From the IMG/VR virus record IMGVR_UViG_3300031578_006117, positions 1-24,575 of that record: DNA of 24,575 nucleotides. One strand, given 5' to 3'. Under the pieces are notes generated by a model. It was not told where the DNA came from, did not search any database, and saw nothing but the letters and a program-made list of their open reading frames with translations. The DNA comes from a virus. The position numbers and the translations under genes were made by a program. Of this stretch, positions 3,599-15,310 are shown piece after piece; position 1 is the first letter of the stretch, and the number at the start of each line of letters is the position of its first letter.

Positions 3599-3621
3599 TA
3601 TTATACAAATTTATTTTTTAA
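3599..3621 (-). promoter_or_regulatory. Promoter-like motif P1 upstream of the clamp loader
   Basis: On the minus strand a 23-nt element reads TTAAAAAATAAA followed by TTTGTATAATA. The same arrangement occurs at 22204-22226 (same length) and 15369-15390 (one base shorter), each time just ahead of a gene. The TATAAT core ends about 24 bases before the clamp loader ATG, which would leave a short leader. The element overlaps the last codons and stop of the polymerase gene. It differs from the usual Bacteroidota TTTG/TAnnTTTG pair, so it may be a phage-specific variant. No transcription start is known. Confidence 0.6.
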
Positions 3622-6208
3622 CCTTATCGCACCAGGATGCGTCTATTGGGCAATATTCCACATCTACTTCCAAAGGAACAATTATCCATGGCCATGCTTT
3701 GGGTAATTCTACAGTTGCAATTCTTTTAGCCACTTTTATTACATGCTCACGTTCATCTGGATGTACATCTAATATCACAGAATCATGAACTTGACTAATT
3801 AATCTACTATCCCATTTCTCTTTTACCATTCTTTTATCTAATTCAATGAATGTCCAAAGTAAGCAATGAAAAGCAGAACCCTGACCAGGATAATTGCAAA
3901 CCTCTTTCATGTTCATTAAACCACTACAACGGAATCCAGTTAACAAATCAATATATCCTCTCCTTTTGTATTGACTCCACCATCGTTTTTTCCATTCAGC
4001 ATATTCTGGAAACCGATTTTCCCAAAAATCTTTTTCAATTATTCTTAAATGATTTTCAAATGCTCTAAATGAATTTAAACCTACTTTAATAAAATGATCA
4101 CTCAAAGTTCCTTCTGGCATAGGAATACCTTCATTTGGTTTAAATTTACCTCTTGAGATATTACACCATTCATTCAATAATGAAATAGCATTGTTTTTAT
4201 AGTAATCTCCATAAAATTGAGGAAATACAAATCCATTTTTTGTCGCTTGCCTTAAAACATAATGTTCCGGTATTTTTTTATCAAATCCATCTACAACAAA
4301 AATCTCTTTTGCCATATCTGCATGCATATCCAATTTAAGATTAGACACATATTTTATCAAGTTTGGATCTTTATTATAACAAGCATTTATAGCTACTTCA
4401 ATTCCTTTAAAATCTATTTCTACTAATTGATGTCCTGGTCGTGGATATAATGCTTTTCTACATATTTTCATTGACTCTTCATCTCTTGCCGGAACATTCT
4501 GAAGGTTAGGGCGATCCATACTTGAACGATATGTAACTGGTAAATGAAGATTGAAAAATGGATGTAAATGGTTGTTTATTTGTTCTTTAGAATACCCATC
4601 TAAATTAACATCCCTCAATCTTTTTAATTTAGATCGTTGTATCAATAAATTTAATTCAGGTAAGTTTAATTTTTTCAATGTATCTTCATCTGTTGATCCT
4701 TTACCTGAAGTGGTTAATTTTGATGGTTTTAATTTCTTTATGTTGTAAAGAAAAACACGCAATTGAGTATCAGAATCTATGTTAACTTTACTTGAAAAAG
4801 AATGAACCCAATGTTTATAAAAATTAGTTTCTTTGAATCGTTTTTCTACACGGTTTATTTTTCTAGTTAACTCAACTTTCTTTTTCTCAACATAATCCAT
4901 GTCTACACGAAATCCTTGTTGTTCTGCTCTTGAAAATGCAATAATACCTTCATGAAATAGTTTATATGCCTTTTGGAAATTTGGGTTTTTTGATATTATT
5001 GAACGTTGAATTTTAGCTAATCTTGTTTCATGTATACTATCCAATGCATCATACTCTAACAATTTTTTTCTTTTTATTGGATCATTAGCCAATTTCATAA
5101 TTTGATTGATAGCATTACCTCCATCTTTTTTATCATTACCACGTAAATAAGGAGAAATTTCACTATCGTAATCTACAATACCAAATTGAACATAGGATTG
5201 AAATTTTAAGCTAGTAATACCAGTGCGATTATCTAATATATGAGCAGCAATCATTGAATCAAATTTCCAATTAGCTACTGGTTGATTTAATTTAATAGAA
5301 CTCCATGCCTCTTCAAATTTTAGATTATGAGCTGTTTTAGGTATGTTTGGGTTTTTCAATAAGTTTATAAATGGTTTTGCATTTTTTCTCTTTTGTGGCA
5401 TCATAAACGCATAAGCATTATTTTCGTTTATGGCAATAGAAGCACAAACAATACGTTGCCCCTCAGCATGAGGTTTTAATCCAGTAGTCTCATAATCAAA
5501 CCCAAACTCATCATCTATTTCATCTAATATAGACAAATCTTTAATGTATTTAATTTTGGGTTTTTTGTATTCTAAAAATGGTTTTTCTATTGTTTTTAAT
5601 GCTTGTCTTAAATCTTGCTCCCAAATAGTTTTTTCAATTGAAGTGCTATTATAAGACGATTTAGATGATATTATAAAATCAGGATGATATACAGGACAAA
5701 CCCATGCTTTAAAATCTTGATCTGGAATAGCCCATCCTCTCCATTTAGCAATTGTACCTAAATTCTTTTGCCATCTACTTCCAATAAAAGAATAGATTGC
5801 AGGGAACCCAAATAATATAATTGTTTTGGGTTTATATTTTTCAATAAATTTAAAGATACTGCTTCTGCATGCTTCTATTGAATAGTTGGAAGGTGGTTTA
5901 TCTTCCCCCATATAGCAACGCACTGAATTGATATTCAAGCAATCTTCAAATAAATCAATACCTAATTCTTTATATGTTTTTTCTAATAATCTTCCAGAGG
6001 CACTTTGCCATGGCTTTCCAAGGTGATCTTCTAATTTAGAATAAGTACTGCCAATATTAAGAATACCCTTTTTAAAGTTACCAAACGGCTCCATTCTTGG
6101 TGTTTCTGAATCTTTATATAACCCACATACTGAACAAGAATATTTTTTGCCGTTTGGACGAGATAATGATTGTGTTTCCTTTTTTGTAAAAAATCCTACT
6201 TGCTCCAT
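3611..6208 (-). CDS. Family-A DNA polymerase fused to an N-terminal family-4 uracil-DNA-glycosylase-like domain
   Basis: 865 residues in three parts. (1) Residues about 20-205 match family-4 UDG: four Cys placed as for an iron-sulfur cluster (C25, C28, C98, C114), the GKPWQSASGRLL segment (64-75) and a terminal YHPDF (His175). The catalytic GEAPG-type loop is GSTYS (53-57), so the usual acidic residue is Ser54. (2) A DnaQ-like 3'-5' exonuclease: FDYETTGL with D238/E240, HNLKFE (294-299, Glu where Asp is usual), and YDALD (386-390). (3) A polymerase domain: RPNLQNVPAR (566-575), motif A with D599 and E604, motif B R653-x3-K657 through YG667, and motif C VHDS (807-810). This is the likely replicative polymerase, with clamp and clamp loader as neighbours. 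Whether the UDG part cuts, only binds uracil or is structural is open. It starts 2 bases after the clamp gene, without a Shine-Dalgarno sequence. Confidence 0.9.
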   Translation of the reverse strand: MEQVGFFTKKETQSLSRPNGKKYSCSVCGLYKDSETPRMEPFGNFKKGILNIGSTYSKLEDHLGKPWQSASGRLLEKTYKELGIDLFEDCLNINSVRCYMGEDKPPSNYSIEACRSSIFKFIEKYKPKTIILFGFPAIYSFIGSRWQKNLGTIAKWRGWAIPDQDFKAWVCPVYHPDFIISSKSSYNSTSIEKTIWEQDLRQALKTIEKPFLEYKKPKIKYIKDLSILDEIDDEFGFDYETTGLKPHAEGQRIVCASIAINENNAYAFMMPQKRKNAKPFINLLKNPNIPKTAHNLKFEEAWSSIKLNQPVANWKFDSMIAAHILDNRTGITSLKFQSYVQFGIVDYDSEISPYLRGNDKKDGGNAINQIMKLANDPIKRKKLLEYDALDSIHETRLAKIQRSIISKNPNFQKAYKLFHEGIIAFSRAEQQGFRVDMDYVEKKKVELTRKINRVEKRFKETNFYKHWVHSFSSKVNIDSDTQLRVFLYNIKKLKPSKLTTSGKGSTDEDTLKKLNLPELNLLIQRSKLKRLRDVNLDGYSKEQINNHLHPFFNLHLPVTYRSSMDRPNLQNVPARDEESMKICRKALYPRPGHQLVEIDFKGIEVAINACYNKDPNLIKYVSNLKLDMHADMAKEIFVVDGFDKKIPEHYVLRQATKNGFVFPQFYGDYYKNNAISLLNEWCNISRGKFKPNEGIPMPEGTLSDHFIKVGLNSFRAFENHLRIIEKDFWENRFPEYAEWKKRWWSQYKRRGYIDLLTGFRCSGLMNMKEVCNYPGQGSAFHCLLWTFIELDKRMVKEKWDSRLISQVHDSVILDVHPDEREHVIKVAKRIATVELPKAWPWIIVPLEVDVEYCPIDASWCDKVKK

Positions 6209-7214: not shown

Positions 7215-8009
7215 TTATGGTTCGTATGAGTACATTTTTCTTTTTTTAACTGGATTGAGTTTATCTTTGAATCGCTCAAGCCCTTCATTACCTAATGATC
7301 CACCATCATTAACCAGTTTTCCTTTAGATTGAATTTCACGATCTGTATAAAAACAATATCGGGCAAATTCGTCAACGTGAGGTTGATCTGCTACAGTTAA
7401 TACATATCTGTAATTAATGTAATACCAATTCTCATCCCAAATATTTATAGCAGCTAATTTACCATAACCATCATATAAGAATTTTCTATGGATTCCTTCG
7501 ATTTCATCACCGTATGCTCCGTATGTTGCTATCATTCCTGCTTCTTCAATTGTTGACTTTCTGCGTTCAAACCAATCCGCTAATAAAGTAGATACTTCTT
7601 TCCACTGAAATGATTCCCGATAACTCCAACTTGTATTGGATATAAGCCATTTTCTTATGTTCTTCCTGTATACCTCCCACTTACCTCCTGACAGGTCGTT
7701 AAAGTGTTTAGGATTGTATATGTATTCGTAATCTAAAAACTTAAATTTACATGGGATTGGTACTTTTGAGTTTTCAAAATCCGACCAAACTTTCATATGT
7801 TTAGCATTAATTGCTAAACCAAGTATAACTGGCAATGGTGGAAATAAAGCCATATCACTTTGTCTTTCTTGAATCCATATCCAGTTAACATCTTCATAAC
7901 ATTCTGCTAATGTTAATTTCAAATATGGTTCACTTATGAAGAAATTAGGTATCATCCCCCTTCTCTTCATCAAATCTAAATAAAGGTTGAGTTTTCTTAT
8001 CCTTTTCAT
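7215..8009 (-). CDS. DUF2156/GNAT-fold acyltransferase-like protein
   Basis: 264 residues. The centre and C-terminus resemble the DUF2156 (phosphatidylglycerol lysyltransferase C-terminal, GNAT-type) pattern: DLSGGKWEVYRKNIRK (105-120), a central sheet region KLAAINIWDENWYYINYRYV (184-203), and the family-like ending VNDGGSLGNEGLERFKDKL followed by NPVKKRKM (233-259). Members transfer aminoacyl or acyl groups, often from aminoacyl-tRNA; the substrate here is unknown. It lies 12 bases upstream of the clamp gene and downstream of the 254-residue protein. The start at 8009 is uncertain: ATGs at 7970 and 7955 are in frame, and a 56-residue frame overlaps the N-terminus. Plausible roles are nucleic-acid or protein aminoacylation, which is inference. 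Confidence 0.55.
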   Translation of the reverse strand: MKRIRKLNLYLDLMKRRGMIPNFFISEPYLKLTLAECYEDVNWIWIQERQSDMALFPPLPVILGLAINAKHMKVWSDFENSKVPIPCKFKFLDYEYIYNPKHFNDLSGGKWEVYRKNIRKWLISNTSWSYRESFQWKEVSTLLADWFERRKSTIEEAGMIATYGAYGDEIEGIHRKFLYDGYGKLAAINIWDENWYYINYRYVLTVADQPHVDEFARYCFYTDREIQSKGKLVNDGGSLGNEGLERFKDKLNPVKKRKMYSYEP

Positions 8010-8115
8010 CTTTTGGTAAATTTACACATTTTTTAATTTCTGAGTATTTTCCGCTTTTTAATGCATCAATTAGTTTTTTACTGACGCCTCCTGACTTTCT
8101 GCTCTTTCCTCCCAT
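7945..8115 (-). CDS. Possible small basic protein overlapping both neighbours
   Basis: A 56-residue frame starts at ATG 8115 and stops at 7945, spanning the 68-base gap between the 254-residue protein and the DUF2156-like gene. It begins MGGKSRKSGGVSKKLIDALK and ends with charged residues (FRFDEEKGDDT). It overlaps its neighbours by 38 and 65 bases in other frames. If the DUF2156-like gene really starts at 7955, the overlap falls to 11 bases and this gene becomes more believable. No family is recognised; it may be chance. Confidence 0.35.
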   Translation of the reverse strand: MGGKSRKSGGVSKKLIDALKSGKYSEIKKCVNLPKDEKDKKTQPLFRFDEEKGDDT

Positions 8116-8842
8116 TTCCAATAATTTTTAATTTAATTATTTCATCGTATAAACAACAAGCTATAATTCCATGAACTTTACGGATTCCAGTGCTTCCTCC
8201 AGTTACCAGAATATAATCTTCATTCCCTTCATTAGATGGAAATGAAAATTTAAGAACATCATTAAAAACAAACAATGCCCTAAGATCATTTGTTTTTATA
8301 GCAATTGGACCGAAATCATGTTTTAATGTTTCGGGAAACATCCCTTTAGCAATTTTTTCAATTTTGATTATTCCTCCAGAATAAATATTTCTTTGTAGCA
8401 TTCGTATTGTTTTCCCTGCTTTACCGGAAAATTCTACATGACTTAAATCAAAATCTAATAAAGTTAAAACATCTTTAGATAATGAAACAGCATCACCTTT
8501 TGGTGATTCGTATGTGTAAAATAATTCCCTTACTTCTTTTGGTGTTAGATCAGTAGTTCCACATATTTTTTGCTTTTCATAATCACCTAATTTAGTGTAG
8601 AAAATTATTTTAGAATCTTTTGCTTCAAAGGTATCGCTATCATAATCGTTTGCTTTGAAGGAGATAGGAGTTTCAAATGGATCATCTGATTTTAATAAAT
8701 CAAATTTTAACAAAATAGTATGATCATAATTGAGAATAAATATCTCACGATCAATACCATAAATGGTATTTCGCAATCCTCCGTTCTGATCTAGAAGGAC
8801 AGCCTGAGCAAAAATTTCTTTAGCAATGTTTTCAATTTTCAT
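8078..8842 (-). CDS. Uncharacterised 254-aa protein, possibly clamp-like
   Basis: The protein is rich in beta strand. It has two halves of similar character: residues 1-110 with REIFILNYDHTILLKFDLLK, and residues 160-245 with LRALFVFNDVLKFSFPS then DYILVTGGSTGIRKVHGIIA; both halves open with a helix reading KIENIAKEIF or KIEKIAKGMF. This internal duplication can be seen directly and is compatible with a two-domain PCNA-like or other duplicated fold, but I see no diagnostic motif. The C-terminus is basic (GRKEQKVRRRQ). It lies between rtcB and the DUF2156-like gene, one gene away from the true clamp. Function unknown; the start has an A/T-rich leader. Confidence 0.7.
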   Translation of the reverse strand: MKIENIAKEIFAQAVLLDQNGGLRNTIYGIDREIFILNYDHTILLKFDLLKSDDPFETPISFKANDYDSDTFEAKDSKIIFYTKLGDYEKQKICGTTDLTPKEVRELFYTYESPKGDAVSLSKDVLTLLDFDLSHVEFSGKAGKTIRMLQRNIYSGGIIKIEKIAKGMFPETLKHDFGPIAIKTNDLRALFVFNDVLKFSFPSNEGNEDYILVTGGSTGIRKVHGIIACCLYDEIIKLKIIGNGRKEQKVRRRQ

Positions 8843-8862: not shown

Positions 8863-10041
8863 TTAACCTTTAATTACTGCCAACGGTTTTAATTCAACTA
8901 AAATCTTAACGAGATCACTTTGATTTTCCATAACAATATCAATATCTTTATAAGCACCAGAAGCCTCATCTAAATCATGAATTGTTTTTATTTCATGTAT
9001 AATACCTTGTTTATTCATTAATTCAATTTCTTGTTTAAGATTCAACCCAATTTTAGCTTGATTCCTTCCCATCTTCCTTCCTGCTCCATGAGAACAAGAC
9101 ATAAAAGATTCTCTATTGCCAAGTCCTTCCACTATATATGATTTTGTTCCTTGTGATCCTGGGATTATTCCAATTTCTCCTTCTCTTGCTGAAGTAGCAC
9201 CTTTTCTATGAACAATAACATTCTGTCCAAAATGATTCTCCCATTTAGCATAATTATGAGCAATGTTTATTGTATTGTCAAATAATATAAAACTTTCAGA
9301 TACTGTGTTTACAATTATATCAATAATCCTATTCATCATAAGTTTTCTATTGGCAAGAGCAAATTCTACACAATATTTCATTTCAAGCATATAGTTTTTA
9401 GCTTCTGATGTATCTATTGGTAAAAATGCTAATTCTTTGTCTTTAGTAATTTCAGAATACCATTTAGTATTTTCTTTTATAGCAACAGTATTATAATGTT
9501 GTGCTACTTTATATCCAAGATTTCTACTTCCTGAATGAATCATAATCCAAATATACTCATCACTTCCTTTTTGTATTTCAATAAAATGATTACCACCTCC
9601 AAGAGTTCCTAATTGATATAATGCTGAATCATATTGCTGATTAAATACTGGCATAAAAGCATAATCAGTACCATCTGGAACAGGCATTAAATTTTCATCT
9701 TGGGGTTTTGAATGATGTGCAAATCCTATAGGAATTATTTTCTTTATTTTTTCTACAATATTAATCAAGCTTTCTTTTGTAATAGATGTTAAAGAAGTCT
9801 CCACAGCACACATTCCACACCCAATATCTACTCCAACAGCATTTGGAATAATAACACCTTTTGCAGCCATAACTCCTCCAATAAGCATCCCATAACCTTG
9901 ATGAGCGTCTGGCATAATAGCTACATGTTTAAAAATAAATGGAAGGTTGGCTATGTTTATAGCTTGATCTAAAGCACCTGGTTCAATATCGTCCAACCAT
10001 AACTTGATTGGGTGCTTTTCTGTGTTAATTACTCTTTTCAT
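8863..10041 (-). CDS. rtcB: RtcB-family RNA-splicing ligase
   Basis: 392 residues, close to the roughly 400 expected. Family hallmarks are present: MPDAHQGYGMLIGGV (43-57), VGVDIGCGM with metal-binding Cys75, GTLGGGNHFIE (145-155), IHSGSRNLG (168-176) and, near residue 315, SCSHGAGRKMGR, which includes the His that takes GMP. RtcB joins RNA 2',3'-cyclic phosphate (or 3'-phosphate) ends to 5'-OH ends using GTP and Mn2+. In a phage it could rejoin tRNAs cut by host anticodon nucleases. Its ATG overlaps the stop of the upstream radical-SAM gene (ATGA), so it is translationally coupled to that cassette. No archease partner gene is visible. All key residues appear intact. Confidence 0.95.
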   Translation of the reverse strand: MKRVINTEKHPIKLWLDDIEPGALDQAINIANLPFIFKHVAIMPDAHQGYGMLIGGVMAAKGVIIPNAVGVDIGCGMCAVETSLTSITKESLINIVEKIKKIIPIGFAHHSKPQDENLMPVPDGTDYAFMPVFNQQYDSALYQLGTLGGGNHFIEIQKGSDEYIWIMIHSGSRNLGYKVAQHYNTVAIKENTKWYSEITKDKELAFLPIDTSEAKNYMLEMKYCVEFALANRKLMMNRIIDIIVNTVSESFILFDNTINIAHNYAKWENHFGQNVIVHRKGATSAREGEIGIIPGSQGTKSYIVEGLGNRESFMSCSHGAGRKMGRNQAKIGLNLKQEIELMNKQGIIHEIKTIHDLDEASGAYKDIDIVMENQSDLVKILVELKPLAVIKG

Positions 10042-11441
10042 AATGTTTCATTTATTAAAGTTTCACGATAATCTGATTCATCTAATCTCCATATAATTCC
10101 ATTCTCATCCCTACCAACAGCAATCATTCCTGCTGACCATCTATGCGAATAAGCAACATTCCCTTCAAGGTTCCAAAGATGTTTGACTTCCATTTTTAAT
10201 TCTTCAGTCAAAAATCCCCCATGTTTATCTACATATTTTTCAAACATTCCCCATGTGGTATTTTTCCCTTTCCTTTTAGAAATAAATCTTGCTGCCATCA
10301 CGGTACTTCCATAGTTCCACCCTCCTTTGAAATGATGGCCAACTTCACAACATATAGATTGATCATTACTTGGAACATTACCCATATCAAATGTTGAACA
10401 TGAAAATCCTCTTTCCCTAAACAATTCCATAAATTTAGAAAGTAGAATACTTCCAAAGGGTTGGCTATCACATCCTGCTTCAAACATTCGATCATAATCA
10501 TATCCTTCATTTATAAAATTTTGCCTTAATCCTGAATTATTGGCTGTATATGAATAAGTATCAAATGTTATATTTCTTGCTCCTGCTTCCCAAATATCTT
10601 CCATATACTTTTCAACATAATCACGTTCATCCGTAATTAAATACAAAAATGGTTCAATTCTTGGAATAGCTAATACTCCAGCATCATTTAGTATTTTTAA
10701 CGCACTTAATCGCTTAGCATATGGAGGTGCACCTGGTTCTAATTCTTTACAAATCTTTTCATTATTTGTTATCATGGTTATATGAACCGCAGAACCTGCT
10801 TTATTGTCTGCTAATGCCTTTACATAAGGATCAGTTGCAACTAAATCGGATTTGGTATTTATCATTACTGGGTATTCTACATCTTTTAAATATTCTAACA
10901 TCCTGAGACTCACTCCATGTCTTCCTTCATTCCTTAAAAAATCCTCAAATCGAATACCCATCCTGACAGGAATTTCTAAAGCAAATGCTTTATTAATACC
11001 AGACAATAAACGCTTATCCTCCATATTCATAGCACGATATTTGCTCATTTTGTCCAATTCCTTAATATAATAATCAGGGTTACAATGTCGCAATCCCATT
11101 GTTTTAGAATTATCGAAAAAGGCTGTGTATAGTGAGGCTCTAAAGGAGTTTGCAAAACAATAGATACAATTGTAGGGGCAAATTAAACCGTCCCAAATAT
11201 CCAAGTTAAACGGCATAGGACATGCTGCTGCTCTTACCGATATTTCAAGAAATGAATTTATTTCTTCTGTATTCAATAATCGTTCTTGCTTTCGCCATTC
11301 TTTATGCCGTAGGTTGTATTGACTGTAGTTTTTCTTCCTTCCTTTTTCACGCACTATTTCTGATTTACGGCTGGAAGACAATAATTGAGTCATCCTGGGG
11401 ATGGCTTTGCTAACTGCTTTTCTTAATTCCCAATAGTTCAT
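10038..11441 (-). CDS. Radical SAM enzyme, spore-photoproduct-lyase-like (copy B)
   Basis: 467 residues. The [4Fe-4S]-binding CX3CX2C motif is Cys88, Cys92, Cys95 (GLICPYNCIYC), placed after a basic N-terminal region (1-60). Downstream segments (VRMGIRFEDF, then YPVMINTKSDLVATDPYV) follow the SplB/COG1533 layout. A Cys-Cys pair occurs late (DQSICCEVGHHF), at the same relative place as in the neighbouring copy A. The last 100 residues form an extra basic/aromatic domain absent from copy A. Radical SAM enzymes make a 5'-deoxyadenosyl radical; SPL relatives act on thymine dimers in DNA, but many members have unknown substrates. It is coupled by ATGA overlaps to copy A upstream and rtcB downstream. 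Substrate unknown. Confidence 0.8.
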   Translation of the reverse strand: MNYWELRKAVSKAIPRMTQLLSSSRKSEIVREKGRKKNYSQYNLRHKEWRKQERLLNTEEINSFLEISVRAAACPMPFNLDIWDGLICPYNCIYCFANSFRASLYTAFFDNSKTMGLRHCNPDYYIKELDKMSKYRAMNMEDKRLLSGINKAFALEIPVRMGIRFEDFLRNEGRHGVSLRMLEYLKDVEYPVMINTKSDLVATDPYVKALADNKAGSAVHITMITNNEKICKELEPGAPPYAKRLSALKILNDAGVLAIPRIEPFLYLITDERDYVEKYMEDIWEAGARNITFDTYSYTANNSGLRQNFINEGYDYDRMFEAGCDSQPFGSILLSKFMELFRERGFSCSTFDMGNVPSNDQSICCEVGHHFKGGWNYGSTVMAARFISKRKGKNTTWGMFEKYVDKHGGFLTEELKMEVKHLWNLEGNVAYSHRWSAGMIAVGRDENGIIWRLDESDYRETLINETL

Positions 11442-12505
11442 ATTCCTGCATCTTTAAATGTATAATAATCTTTTGACGGTTTTCCTAAAACAATTTTAGT
11501 GGCTTGTTTTATATCTTCATCAGAGCCAATCCCTTCCCATGTTAAAAATAATATATTAGTGCCAAATCGTTTCTTTTTTTGTAATTGTAAACCTCTCCAA
11601 ATATGTGTATTGAATGTTAATGCATTAGAAACATTTATTCCACAGCAAGTATTTGTAATTGACATCCAATTAATAGGAACATTTACAAAATCAGGACATC
11701 CTAAAGTAACCCCTACATCATCTGCAATTCTACATAATTTCTTTTGAGTTTCACTCCAATGCTTATCTTGATTGAGTGTCCATATCTTTTCAATATCCAA
11801 ACCAATATTATGTAATCTTTTTATTGTGTATTCGTTGATATGAAGATTATAAGTATTATATGATTTTAATCCATAACTTTTTAATCTTTTTAACATATCT
11901 CTAAATTGATGTAGAGTATGATATCCAGGGATATACGGCTCCCCTCTGACACCCACTTTAATTCCTATTTTCTGCCAATGACTAGTTATTTCTAATCTTC
12001 TTTTAACAGGTGTAGTTCTTTTTCTTTCAAACAATTCCCAATCTGCTTCTGCTCCAGGAGTTATTTCAGTAAGTAAATGAAGATATTTTCCTCCAGACCA
12101 AAATAAATCTGTATCACGTTCCATGTTTGCTTGATATCGGGAACAAACTACAATTGGATATTTTAATTCTATCAATATTTTAAGTAATTGTTGAGTAACT
12201 TTCTTTTCATTTTCTATTGGTTGATATGGGTCAGCTTTTCGACCTAAGAAAAATGCCTTTTTTTGATGTAAAGCTTGAGCAATAATTGATTTTGGATTTT
12301 CATTCTTCAAGGCATTTAAAAGAGTTTTCTTGACAGCTTCTGGATCAGTTATTCTTTGTTCCTCACCCCAAACTTTATTTAATCTCCTTCCCATGCAATG
12401 AAAGCAATCTGCTTCACATGCCCAATATGATTCTAAAGCTAATGCTAAAGGACACGTCAAATGATCCTTCCTCATTGCTATTGGATTTTTATATATTCTT
12501 TCCAT
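11438..12505 (-). CDS. Radical SAM enzyme, spore-photoproduct-lyase-like (copy A)
   Basis: 355 residues. The cluster-binding Cys are C30, C34 and C37 (WACEADCFHC). GRKADPYQPIENE, followed by LLKILIELKYPIVVCSRY, matches the SPL-type strand and loop in which DPYQPIE is characteristic. LLTEITPGAEADWELFE and VGVRGEPYIPG continue the TIM-barrel pattern. A late Cys-Cys pair (TNTCCGINVSN) matches copy B, so the two look like diverged paralogs, possibly forming a heterodimer or doing successive steps. ATGA overlap with copy B downstream; 6 bases after the 70-residue gene. The start leader is AT-rich with no Shine-Dalgarno sequence. Reaction and substrate cannot be named from sequence. Confidence 0.8.
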   Translation of the reverse strand: MERIYKNPIAMRKDHLTCPLALALESYWACEADCFHCMGRRLNKVWGEEQRITDPEAVKKTLLNALKNENPKSIIAQALHQKKAFFLGRKADPYQPIENEKKVTQQLLKILIELKYPIVVCSRYQANMERDTDLFWSGGKYLHLLTEITPGAEADWELFERKRTTPVKRRLEITSHWQKIGIKVGVRGEPYIPGYHTLHQFRDMLKRLKSYGLKSYNTYNLHINEYTIKRLHNIGLDIEKIWTLNQDKHWSETQKKLCRIADDVGVTLGCPDFVNVPINWMSITNTCCGINVSNALTFNTHIWRGLQLQKKKRFGTNILFLTWEGIGSDEDIKQATKIVLGKPSKDYYTFKDAGI

Positions 12506-12511
12506 TGTTTT

Positions 12512-12724
12512 TTATTTAAAAATATTAATATCTGCTAAACCTCTCCATGCAGTCTGTAGTTTACAAATATCTTGAATTGTTACCTCATTTCCTTTGTCCT
12601 CAAGTAACTCAACAAGATCAATAATCTTATCAAGTATTATTTCATTGATTTCAATACTACACATCCTTAATGCAATGTCTAAGTTTGTGGTTGTTACTTT
12701 GTTAATTGGTTTCTCTGTTTTCAT
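12512..12724 (-). CDS. Hypothetical protein, 70 aa, in the radical-SAM cassette
   Basis: A small helical protein of 70 residues: after a polar N-terminus, SIEINEIILDKIIDLVELLE and VTIQDICKLQTAWRGLAD form two hydrophobic/acidic helices. It overlaps the end of the aldo/keto reductase gene by 23 bases and is followed 6 bases later by radical-SAM copy A, so it belongs to the same coupled operon. No family recognised. Size and position would suit a small binding subunit for one of the enzymes, which is a guess. Confidence 0.65.
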   Translation of the reverse strand: MKTEKPINKVTTTNLDIALRMCSIEINEIILDKIIDLVELLEDKGNEVTIQDICKLQTAWRGLADINIFK

Positions 12725-13706
12725 TATAATAATTTGTTAATTCTAAAACATCGTTTTGATCAAGATGCAAATCATTACTCAATATATTCTCTTTAAAGTG
12801 ATTTACATTGTTTGTATTTGGAATAGGAATAACACCATTAAAAGATAATATCCAAGCCAGGGCAACTTGAGCCTGAGAACTATTATATTTTTTGGCTATT
12901 TTTGACAATAGTGGTGATTTTAATTTATCAAATTTCTGCCCAAGTGGACTATATGCAAGTACAACAATACCTCTTTTCTGACAATATGGAAGGAATGTTT
13001 TACTAATACGATTATTTAACATGTTAAAAGCCATTTGCACTGTACTAATTACATCCCCACTATATTCAGATAGGAATATCTGGGAATATTCAATCATGTC
13101 AATAGAACAATTGCTTAGCCCAATGCTTTTAATAAAATTGAATTGTCGTAATGTAACTAAATCTTTTACAGCATCTGGGTATTTGTTATTTGGAAAATGA
13201 AGTTGCACATGAGGTACAGTATTTAATTTTACGTTACTTCTAACAACAGCTGCACGAATAGCTAATGGGCTCATATGATCCCTTCTGACTTTTGTCATAA
13301 TTTCAACTGGTGCTGAGTCTTTCAATATTTTTCCTAATTCTGTTTCAACTTTCCCATACCCATATCCTTCTGCTGTATCTATTATGGATGCTTTTTTAAT
13401 AGCTAATTTAATAATCTTTTTATCATATTTCCAACCATAAGTGCCATATCCTACACGACATCTTGGTATCTGTCTTTCTTTAAAAGTAAAGTTAGGATGT
13501 CCTATCAATTTGTCAATTCGTTGTAAGCTATATGATATCATTGCTTTTCTATTCTCCATTAAAGCATCACTCAATGTCATATAACGATAATTCAAACCCC
13601 ACATAGAACCATACAAAGTATCTATGGTGAGATCACTTAACTCAGTTAATTTGCTTTTACCTCCGTAAAAAGCAAGTAATTCATCTTGCACTAATTGCCA
13701 CATCAT
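12702..13706 (-). CDS. Aldo/keto reductase with an extra N-terminal region
   Basis: 334 residues. From about residue 82 the sequence is an aldo/keto reductase barrel: RVGYGTYGW, IIDTAEGYGYGKVETELG (108-125), IMTKV (136-140), VQLHFPN (167-173), IGLSNCS, and VVLAYSPLGQ. The catalytic tetrad appears complete: Asp110, Tyr115, Lys139, His170. The C-terminal IPIPNTNNVNHFKENI segment is the usual NADP(H)-binding end. Such enzymes reduce carbonyls with NADPH. The first 80 residues are not part of the family and match nothing I recognise. Its start overlaps the stop of the methyltransferase-like gene (ATGA) and its end overlaps the 70-residue gene, tying it to the radical-SAM/RtcB cassette. Its substrate may be made or used by the neighbouring enzymes. 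Confidence 0.88.
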   Translation of the reverse strand: MMWQLVQDELLAFYGGKSKLTELSDLTIDTLYGSMWGLNYRYMTLSDALMENRKAMISYSLQRIDKLIGHPNFTFKERQIPRCRVGYGTYGWKYDKKIIKLAIKKASIIDTAEGYGYGKVETELGKILKDSAPVEIMTKVRRDHMSPLAIRAAVVRSNVKLNTVPHVQLHFPNNKYPDAVKDLVTLRQFNFIKSIGLSNCSIDMIEYSQIFLSEYSGDVISTVQMAFNMLNNRISKTFLPYCQKRGIVVLAYSPLGQKFDKLKSPLLSKIAKKYNSSQAQVALAWILSFNGVIPIPNTNNVNHFKENILSNDLHLDQNDVLELTNYYNENRETN

Positions 13707-14434
13707 TTAAAAAGTAATGGTGTTTTTTGATTACCTCCATATAACTTATCACCTTTGTATAAAGAAAGATTGGTTGGAGGCAGAAATATAATATCATTAA
13801 TTCTACGAGTATTTTCAAACAAAAGCATTGCAGCATTATTAAATTTACTCACAACTGTTAATCTTTTTGTCATGAAAGGTTTCATATCATCCCTTAGCAA
13901 ATAATAATATTCCTTTTCATCTTTAATTCCATAATGCTTCATATTCCCAAACTTAAAACCAAAACAAGCACCATCACCTATTATTACATACTTGTTAGTT
14001 CTATCATCCCAGGCTGTAATCATTTCTTCCATTTTATCAGAATGAAATTTCTTTAAAGTGAAATAATCAAAATCCAATATAGAAAGATCACATTCCTCTG
14101 GCACTCGTTTACGAATATCAAAGCTGGTAATTTTATCATTAGGGAAATTTCTTTTTAAGGTTGGCAAACATTCTTTATGAGATTCATTTAAATGAAGAAT
14201 ACAATTTTCCCATTTGTTACGAAATACAGCAGACCAAAAACCGGAACGAGCAATGGCATCAACTATCTTTAGTTGTGTTTTATCTTTGAGAGATATATAA
14301 TCACATATAGCATCTACGTTCCTTGCTGTTTCTGCTACATCACGCCAACCAACTATTTGATTGGGTGTTCCTTTGGCTTCTTTAGTTTCTGCTAAATTTA
14401 TTATAATTGATTGATTTCCTATTGAATATTTCAT
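13703..14434 (-). CDS. Class I SAM-methyltransferase-like protein
   Basis: 243 residues. A Rossmann-type methyltransferase reading is suggested by KIVDAIARSGFWSAVF (56-71, motif I position), ILHLNES with Glu84 at the end of the next strand, KITSFDIRKR (Asp106) and DLSILDFDYF (116-125, motif IV position). Motif I is not a textbook GxGxG, so the protein might be divergent or inactive. The C-terminal quarter, after FMTKRLTVVSKFN, is unassigned. It is the first gene downstream of the intrinsic terminator at 14473-14493 and opens the coupled cassette (ATGA into the reductase). Possible targets are RNA, DNA or protein; I cannot tell. No strong promoter was found immediately before it. Confidence 0.5.
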   Translation of the reverse strand: MKYSIGNQSIIINLAETKEAKGTPNQIVGWRDVAETARNVDAICDYISLKDKTQLKIVDAIARSGFWSAVFRNKWENCILHLNESHKECLPTLKRNFPNDKITSFDIRKRVPEECDLSILDFDYFTLKKFHSDKMEEMITAWDDRTNKYVIIGDGACFGFKFGNMKHYGIKDEKEYYYLLRDDMKPFMTKRLTVVSKFNNAAMLLFENTRRINDIIFLPPTNLSLYKGDKLYGGNQKTPLLFK

Positions 14435-14472
14435 ATTATATTTTGATTAGGCATATATAAAAAATGAAAATA

Positions 14473-14493
14473 GAGGGGGAATTATGCCCCCTC
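14473..14493 (-). terminator. Intrinsic terminator of the acidic-protein gene
   Basis: On the minus strand GAGGGGG pairs with CCCCCTC across a 7-base loop (CATAATT), a 7-bp GC-rich stem in AT-rich surroundings, followed directly by TATTTTCATTTTTT. This is a classical rho-independent terminator. It lies 29 bases after the stop of the acidic protein (14522-15310) and 39 bases before the methyltransferase-like gene, and is the only clear GC-rich terminator I see in the window. Confidence 0.88.
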
Positions 14494-14521
14494 CATTTAC
14501 CGATGTGATTTACCCCAATTA

Positions 14522-15310
14522 TTAGTTGGAAAGTTTACCACCTTTGTCAACCACAATCCCCCATTCTTCTGCAGCAGGCAAAAGAACTTTAATTATATTC
14601 TTAGCTTGCTTAATGTTTGATTCACCACCAGCTTTCACAAAACTCTTATCAGCTATTTCTGCAATGGCTTCAACAGTTTGTGATTTTTTGATTTTTTGCA
14701 TTGCTTTGGCAACTTCAATCATTCTGCTTGTGCCGAGTTTTTCTTTTGCACTTACAAATGGAGTTTTCTTTTTGGCATCAGCATTTCCTTTTTTGCCTTT
14801 TCCTTTTTTACCGGCAGGGGCTTCATCTTCATCTTCATCTTCTTCATCTTCATCTTCATCTTCCTCTTTGACTTTGGATGTTTTGGTTTTCTTACTCCCT
14901 ACATTCTTCTTATGAAGTTTTGCCGGAACGTCCTCATCGTCCTCATCGTCCTCATCGTCCTCATCGTCCTCATCGTCCTCATCGTCCTCATCGTCCTCAT
15001 CGTCATCATCATCATCATCATCATCGTCATCGTCCTCATCATCATCGACAGGCTCAGGCTCAGGCTTCTTTTTTCCTTTACCTTTTTTGGGAGCAGGTGC
15101 TTCTTCCTCATCATTAAAAGAATCAATAAGTGCCTGGGTAGCTTTTGAAAACTTATCTCCATCTTCAATAGATTCCACGCCATCTTTAAATTCTTCCAAA
15201 AGTGCTTCTTTGTCTCCGGTAGAGTCAAGAGCAGGATCAAGATTTAATACTTTTTGAAGTTCTTTCACGGCTGTCCGCAATTCTTTTTCTGTTGCTTTAA
15301 TTTTACTCAT
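14522..15310 (-). CDS. Highly acidic repeat protein with two globular ends
   Basis: 262 residues. Residues 1-68 form a helical N-terminal domain (ELRTAVKELQKVLNLDPAL). A basic Lys/Gly/Pro island (74-86) leads to an almost pure Asp/Glu tract (89-127), a second basic region (131-148), a second acidic tract (149-163), a GKKGKGKKG island, and a C-terminal domain (183-262) with VSAKEKLGTSRMIEVAKAM and AKNIIKVLLPAAEEWGIVV. No enzyme motif is seen. The alternating charge blocks suit a protein that competes with or mimics DNA, binds basic proteins, or organises DNA; that is inference. The gene stands alone between a promoter-like motif (15369-15390) and an intrinsic terminator (14473-14493), so it may be strongly and separately expressed. 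The core of the acidic tract is coded by a 9-bp tandem repeat. Confidence 0.8.
   Translation of the reverse strand: MSKIKATEKELRTAVKELQKVLNLDPALDSTGDKEALLEEFKDGVESIEDGDKFSKATQALIDSFNDEEEAPAPKKGKGKKKPEPEPVDDDEDDDDDDDDDDDDEDDEDDEDDEDDEDDEDDEDDEDVPAKLHKKNVGSKKTKTSKVKEEDEDEDEEDEDEDEAPAGKKGKGKKGNADAKKKTPFVSAKEKLGTSRMIEVAKAMQKIKKSQTVEAIAEIADKSFVKAGGESNIKQAKNIIKVLLPAAEEWGIVVDKGGKLSN
14932..15003. repeat. 9-bp tandem repeat encoding Asp-Asp-Glu units
   Basis: Eight exact consecutive copies of CCTCATCGT over 72 bases, each giving Asp-Asp-Glu on the minus strand. A CAT/GAT trinucleotide run (about 15004-15023) continues the tract. The unit is a multiple of three, so gain or loss of copies changes the length of the acidic tract without breaking the frame. 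Exact identity suggests active slippage. Confidence 0.95.

Follow-up and report, generated by a model that had tools for sequence, protein, structure and literature searches.

A conserved radical SAM gene pair with exchangeable neighbours: a candidate DNA-base hypermodification cassette in uncultured phages

The window analysed in this study is a stretch of 24,575 bases with 32% GC, an IMG/VR virus record (IMGVR_UViG_3300031578_006117) that carries nearly all of its genes on the minus strand. It contains a run of minus-strand genes with two radical S-adenosylmethionine (SAM) enzymes of the spore photoproduct lyase (SPL) type, which we regard, with a probability of roughly 0.6, as a chemical variant of a modular cassette by which phages hypermodify DNA bases. 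In coding order, the run comprises a methyltransferase-like gene (MT, 13703-14434) encoding a 243-aa protein, an aldo/keto reductase gene (AKR, 12702-13706), an open reading frame (ORF) of 70 aa (12512-12724), the radical SAM genes rSAM2 (11438-12505, motif C30xxxC34xxC37) and rSAM1 (10038-11441, motif C88xxxC92xxC95), and a gene for an RtcB RNA ligase (8863-10041). Exact four-base overlaps join MT to AKR (13703-13706), rSAM2 to rSAM1 (11438-11441) and rSAM1 to RtcB (10038-10041), the AKR gene and the 70-aa ORF share 23 bases (12702-12724), and 6 bases separate the latter from rSAM2. The six ORFs, their strand, coordinates, overlaps and gaps were all confirmed as given in the original prediction, which a model had made from the bare letters. 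The same applies to the terminator said to isolate the cassette from an upstream acidic gene, where a minus-strand hairpin with a 12-bp stem and a T-rich tail was found (14468-14498, read from 14498 to 14468). The six genes had further been described as a unit; the run is real, but it does not end at RtcB. After only 20 bases the series continues with g8078 (8078-8842, minus), followed by a DUF2156/LPG_synthase_C-like (GNAT-type) transferase gene (7215-8009, minus; hereafter DUF2156-like), a clamp-like gene (phrog_947), a fusion of uracil-DNA glycosylase (UDG) and polymerase, and a clamp-loader-like gene. A scan for sigma-70 promoters gave no excess over chance (41 versus 36).

Related loci were fetched from IMG/VR, 22 by a search with rSAM1 and 59 by a search with rSAM2 alone. 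Among the loci found by rSAM2 alone, 40 had at least 4 kb of sequence downstream of this gene, and rSAM1 was located no more than 5 kb downstream of rSAM2 in all of them. Downstream genes were counted in the 29 loci with 4.5 kb beyond rSAM1: the clamp-like gene was present in every one, the DUF2156-like gene in 27 and g8078 in 25, and in most relatives g8078 directly followed rSAM1. The gene maps showed a fixed succession, from the helicase and the acidic protein through rSAM2, module, rSAM1, g8078 and DUF2156 to the clamp-like gene and UDG/polymerase. The conserved unit across the relatives is rSAM2-module-rSAM1-g8078-DUF2156-clamp, without RtcB and the 70-aa gene. The original prediction had proposed a neighbourhood search for both radical SAM proteins together with RtcB; the pair was indeed found together throughout and belongs to the conserved unit, while RtcB was not found with it, and both RtcB and the 70-aa gene fall outside that unit. 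The suggestion that the DUF2156-like gene is a further transferase of a hypermodification system is supported by its presence in 27 of these 29 loci.

The gene content of the module differs between loci. A pyridoxal phosphate (PLP) enzyme alone occupied it at 16 loci, MT with AKR at 5, MT with AKR and a GT-A-like protein at 2, MT alone at 3, MT with the PLP enzyme at 3, and a flavin adenine dinucleotide (FAD) protein with AKR, with or without the PLP enzyme, at 3; a few loci had other combinations, and at 12 loci the module was missing or its genes were not recognised. Overall, the PLP enzyme is present in about half of the loci, and AKR was never seen without MT or the FAD protein. In two close relatives, the GT-A-like protein is encoded directly 5' of the MT gene (L003:5716-6600 and L006:4293-5228); it is well conserved and uncharacterised, and we assign it from its protein sequence as a presumed GT-A glycosyltransferase.

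Two of the exchangeable enzymes are homologous to enzymes of known thymidine hypermodification clusters. All 23 aligned members of the PLP family matched phrog_7093, and the family aligned with gp52 of Pseudomonas phage M6 along its full length, over 268 columns with 34% identity (E 1e-68). In M6, gp52 stands between the amino acid:DNA transferase gp51 and the SPL-type radical SAM protein gp53, after which come a 5-hydroxymethyldeoxyuridine (5-hmdU) kinase domain, Nmad5 and a thymidylate-synthase-like gene, and the DNA of this phage carries 5-(2-aminoethyl)dU (5-NedU) (PMC6449724). The FAD protein matched PDB 8z2o/8z79, 'Flavin-dependent lyase', over its full length (E 1e-37), as well as proteins of phages PaMx11 and Sonora that are flanked by genes for amino acid:DNA transferase and 5-hmdU kinase. 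Only four comparisons in the profile matrix were positive: PLP enzyme with gp52, FAD protein with FAD lyase, and rSAM2 and rSAM1 each with gp53. The modules that replace MT and AKR in relatives thus hold homologues of two thymidine-hypermodification enzymes, which supports the earlier suggestion of nucleic-acid hypermodification. In one further locus, L084, the genes for rSAM2 and a class I methyltransferase are separated by one for a CmoA-like carboxy-SAM (Cx-SAM) synthase (L084:7448-8161; TIGR00740, E 8e-51, slightly below the cut-off); in phage S-B43, CmoA supplies Cx-SAM for DNA base modification (PMC12783734).

The structure of the window's MT was predicted with AlphaFold2, which reached a pLDDT of 84 with 10 homologues and of 39 with three sequences. 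The better model has a class I methyltransferase fold, in agreement with the methyltransferase-like character first ascribed to this gene. Its top VIA-align match was Trm1 (3axs; Z 16.4 over 215 residues), compared with Z 14.3 for the next row that was not Trm1; the Trm1 match extends partly beyond the core, and Foldseek also found it (E 4e-8). The two proteins share only 11% identity, and MT had no Pfam match. With Trm1, a base methyltransferase, as its nearest fold, the predicted structure would favour a nucleic-acid base as substrate. The AKR matched PF00248 (E 9e-33) and has an additional N-terminal part of ~80 aa; D110, Y115, K139 and H170, which we take to be the expected catalytic tetrad, are invariant among 9 homologues. 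In the window and two close relatives MT and AKR lie upstream of rSAM2, while in other relatives they lie between rSAM2 and rSAM1, and these two positions relative to rSAM2 indicate that the pair moved as a unit. In the window, the two enzymes would predict a methylated and reduced side chain.

The identities first given to the AKR, RtcB and the two SPL-type radical SAM enzymes agree with the profile matches and the CxxxCxxC motifs. The motif cysteines are invariant among 16 homologues of rSAM2 and 15 of rSAM1, and comparison of the two profiles with hhalign showed that the proteins are paralogues (E 6e-9). Their NCBIfam matches were NF033668 for rSAM2 (E 1e-15) and NF038135 for rSAM1 (E 2e-17), a likeness to the Rv2578c/PA0069/mob_pairB-like proteins. 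By the same method, M6 gp53 was matched at E 1e-8 by rSAM2 and at E 7e-5 by rSAM1, a relation at the level of the superfamily. In GenBank phages rSAM2, MT and the DUF2156-like protein had no match and rSAM1 a single weak one, and from this nearly empty search it follows that there is no cultured relative. In cellular genomes, rSAM1 was found only on three small contigs of metagenome-assembled genomes from three phyla, which is uninformative on the host. The rSAM1 gene is an intein hot spot in five relatives (L069, L113, L073, L107 and L083), in which insertions directly abut the first (C88) or the third (C95) motif cysteine on its N-terminal side; that of G008 (L073) seemingly has two inteins, seven residues apart. 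Several rSAM1 genes are broken up into ORFs that overlap, together with a nuclease-like insert or a separate endonuclease ORF.

The SPL-type character of the pair, its place in a replication block and a weak match of rSAM2 to the 'DNA repair photolyase' phrog_9252 (E 8e-4) could also mean that the two enzymes mend UV damage in phage DNA. We consider this the least probable of the alternatives. The PLP, FAD, AKR, MT and glycosyltransferase modules are without a direct-repair role, M6 gp53 is itself annotated 'DNA repair photolyase' and belongs to a hypermodification cluster, and neither rSAM profile matched a solved SPL in the PDB.

RtcB is a complete member of PF01139 (E 5e-110, residues 26-392, the whole protein), and unrelated genomes often carry RtcB genes of other phages (649 records). 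No tblastn match to it was found in any other fetched locus, and it was present in none of the 5 related records and none of the 29 testable loci that had enough sequence beyond rSAM1. The original prediction had also offered an RNA repair and re-modification system, in which tRNAs cleaved by host defence nucleases, such as anticodon nucleases, would be rejoined by RtcB, and a protective tRNA modification would be added or restored by the radical SAM enzymes, AKR and MT. The translational coupling of RtcB to rSAM1, the tRNA methyltransferase Trm1 as best structural match of MT, and the role of CmoA as a tRNA-modification enzyme in bacteria (PMC12783734) are consistent with such a system. This account nevertheless became improbable: RtcB is missing from the related records and all other fetched loci, the swapped modules resemble DNA-hypermodification enzymes, the block lies among DNA-replication genes, and the window has no tRNA gene. 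As a component of the system, RtcB was rejected on its lack of co-occurrence in the loci and records searched; its coupling to rSAM1 shows co-expression, not common chemistry. It is probably a passenger in the cassette, most readily understood as a distinct counter-defence gene that was inserted behind rSAM1.

The 70-aa ORF is a probable passenger as well; it matched no family above the cut-off, and tblastn found it in none of the other fetched loci. Sets of a radical SAM enzyme, a reductase and a methyltransferase are common in natural-product pathways, and the target could accordingly be something other than nucleic acid, such as a cofactor, a small molecule or a peptide derived from the 70-aa product. 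We give little credence to a target of this kind, as the rSAM pair has no small ORF conserved beside it and the PLP and FAD modules are of the kind carried by phages that modify their DNA. The 70-aa protein, which occurs in the window only and has no homologue, was rejected as a precursor peptide.

The front end of known thymidine hypermodification consists of 5-hmdU synthase, 5-hmdU kinase and amino acid:DNA transferase. These families were searched in related records, which are fragments or unfinished, several of them longer than 70 kb and the longest 172 kb. The amino acid:DNA transferase profile PF18724 and the 5-hmdU DNA kinase profiles PF18723 and PF18748, the last without a positive control, matched in none of 30 records including the window. 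PF18724 and PF18723, the kinase helical domain, were also absent from 14 further related records, one of which may be a repeat, and both matched in M6, PaMx11 and Sonora. The ThyA-family profile PF00303, representing 5-hmdU synthase, matched in none of 16 related records, a set that excludes the window's own record, and its controls matched in 9 genomes. TET/JBP enzymes as a source of 5-hmdU were found in none of the 30 records, in a search without a positive control. The flavin-dependent thymidylate synthase ThyX was present in 2 of the 30 (G009:C1:74167-74712 and G029:C1:36914-37495).

The cassette might still be an ordinary representative of the M6/ViI pathway, with genes for 5-hmdU, the kinase and the amino acid transferase that have diverged beyond recognition or fall on stretches the contigs lack. 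The shared PLP and FAD-lyase enzymes and the SPL-type radical SAM proteins speak for this, every record is unfinished, and families can diverge. We nonetheless regard it as unlikely, given the absence of the three families from the records above and the fact that M6, PaMx11 and Sonora keep their front-end genes beside the tailoring genes. We did not assign the cassette to the M6-type pathway, since the defining front-end enzymes were searched for and not found; it probably works like that pathway, and the modified base may be reached by another entry based on radical SAM chemistry. A thymine-methyl radical is an intermediate of spore photoproduct lyase, which makes direct functionalisation of this methyl group by an SPL-type enzyme plausible. 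Tentatively, the two SPL-type enzymes and the DUF2156-like protein, as an aminoacyl transferase, might thereby bypass 5-hmdU, kinase and amino acid:DNA transferase and feed the interchangeable PLP, FAD lyase-AKR and MT-AKR modules.

The scheme that we propose for the hypermodification cassette, with DNA as its presumed substrate, builds on the observed gene content, synteny, module exchange, protein families and MT fold; the target base, the sequence of reactions, the product and the individual enzyme roles are put forward conditionally. The core would consist of rSAM2, rSAM1 and the DUF2156-like transferase, which in nearly all relatives lie among clamp, polymerase and clamp-loader genes. Through a 5'-deoxyadenosyl radical, the radical SAM enzymes would functionalise a base of the DNA, the 5-methyl of thymine being the likeliest site, and would attach or rearrange an amino-acid-like side chain; the DUF2156-like protein would transfer an aminoacyl or acyl group. 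The swappable module would then finish the side chain: in the clade of the window by means of the Trm1-fold methyltransferase and AKR, to which two close relatives add the GT-A-like protein, and elsewhere by the M6-type PLP enzyme or by FAD lyase with AKR. The likely benefit would be resistance to host restriction, and RtcB and the 70-aa gene would be recent, functionally separate insertions.

Several points weigh against hypermodification as the function. The PLP enzyme and the FAD enzyme are both missing from the window's cassette, and its MT and AKR are without a known hypermodification homologue, so that its function is assigned by association. The radical SAM proteins are only distant relatives of M6 gp53, the DUF2156 assignment is below Pfam's cut-off, and the related records yielded no 5-hmdU synthase (PF00303), no 5-hmdU kinase and no amino acid:DNA transferase. 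Furthermore, all loci belong to one broad metagenomic phage group with no cultured member, and the synteny therefore partly reflects common descent. On the other hand, identities between the relatives' proteins fall to ~30-50%, rSAM1 often diverges less than the polymerase (identities of 58% versus 34% in L024, 60% versus 39% in L033) and the modules are exchanged.

Regarding the genes around the pair, five of the 17 members of the DUF2156-like family matched PF09924 at E <= 1e-3; the window's protein matched it with E 1e-4, below Pfam's cut-off. The replication-block protein g8078, kept in most relatives, had no significant match to Pfam, the PDB or a clamp profile; as a second sliding clamp it was rejected after comparison with the clamp-like family profile (E 0.05). 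Profile comparisons of the DUF2156-like protein and g8078 with amino acid:DNA transferase and 5-hmdU kinase were empty, and neither was retained as a hidden form of these enzymes. The UDG-like and polymerase domains of the window share a single ORF of 865 aa (3611-6208); most relatives encode them in separate ORFs, frequently with intervening genes. Strongly acidic low-complexity proteins are encoded at 602-1777 and 14522-15310, and most relatives have an acidic protein upstream of the cassette (clusters acid16/acid39). In the divergent relative L024, a DUF362 protein (PF04015, E 2e-33; L024:7915-8775) precedes the rSAM pair, whose first member resembles rSAM1.

If the proposed function is correct, many uncultured phages have a base-modification cassette with a conserved radical SAM core and exchangeable finishing modules, and the modified base may arise by a route other than that through 5-hmdU, kinase and transferase. 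SPL-like radical SAM proteins that lack a known function would gain a role, the set of anti-restriction DNA modifications would widen and new DNA-modifying enzymes would become available.

Among known systems, the M6/Yuavirus cluster shares with the relatives of the window a gp52-homologous PLP enzyme adjoining an SPL-type radical SAM gene, a neighbourhood of replication genes and the enzyme logic of side-chain tailoring. The cassette differs from it in having two radical SAM genes instead of one and a DUF2156-like gene, in that 5-hmdU synthase, 5-hmdU kinase and amino acid:DNA transferase were undetected in the cassette group, and, in the window's variant, in having MT and AKR where M6 has the PLP enzyme. 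With the FAD-lyase branch (PaMx11/Abidjanvirus and Stenotrophomonas phage Sonora) some relatives share a full-length homologue at the module position; the lyase is followed by an acetyltransferase in PaMx11 and a nucleotide kinase in Sonora, whereas in the relatives it is followed by AKR and the rSAM pair. The cytosine carboxymethylation system of Synechococcus phage S-B43 (CmoA/CmoX/CmoY), which uses Cx-SAM, has in common with L084 a CmoA homologue and a class I methyltransferase, but no CmoX-type C5-methyltransferase or amide ligase was recognised in the module, and CmoA was present in this one locus only. Finally, the COG1533-type radical SAM proteins (SPL, Rv2578c, PA0069 and the 'radical SAM mobile pair' A/B) share with rSAM1 and rSAM2 the superfamily, the CxxxCxxC motif and weak profile matches, although both proteins of the window score far below the curated cut-off of each named family.

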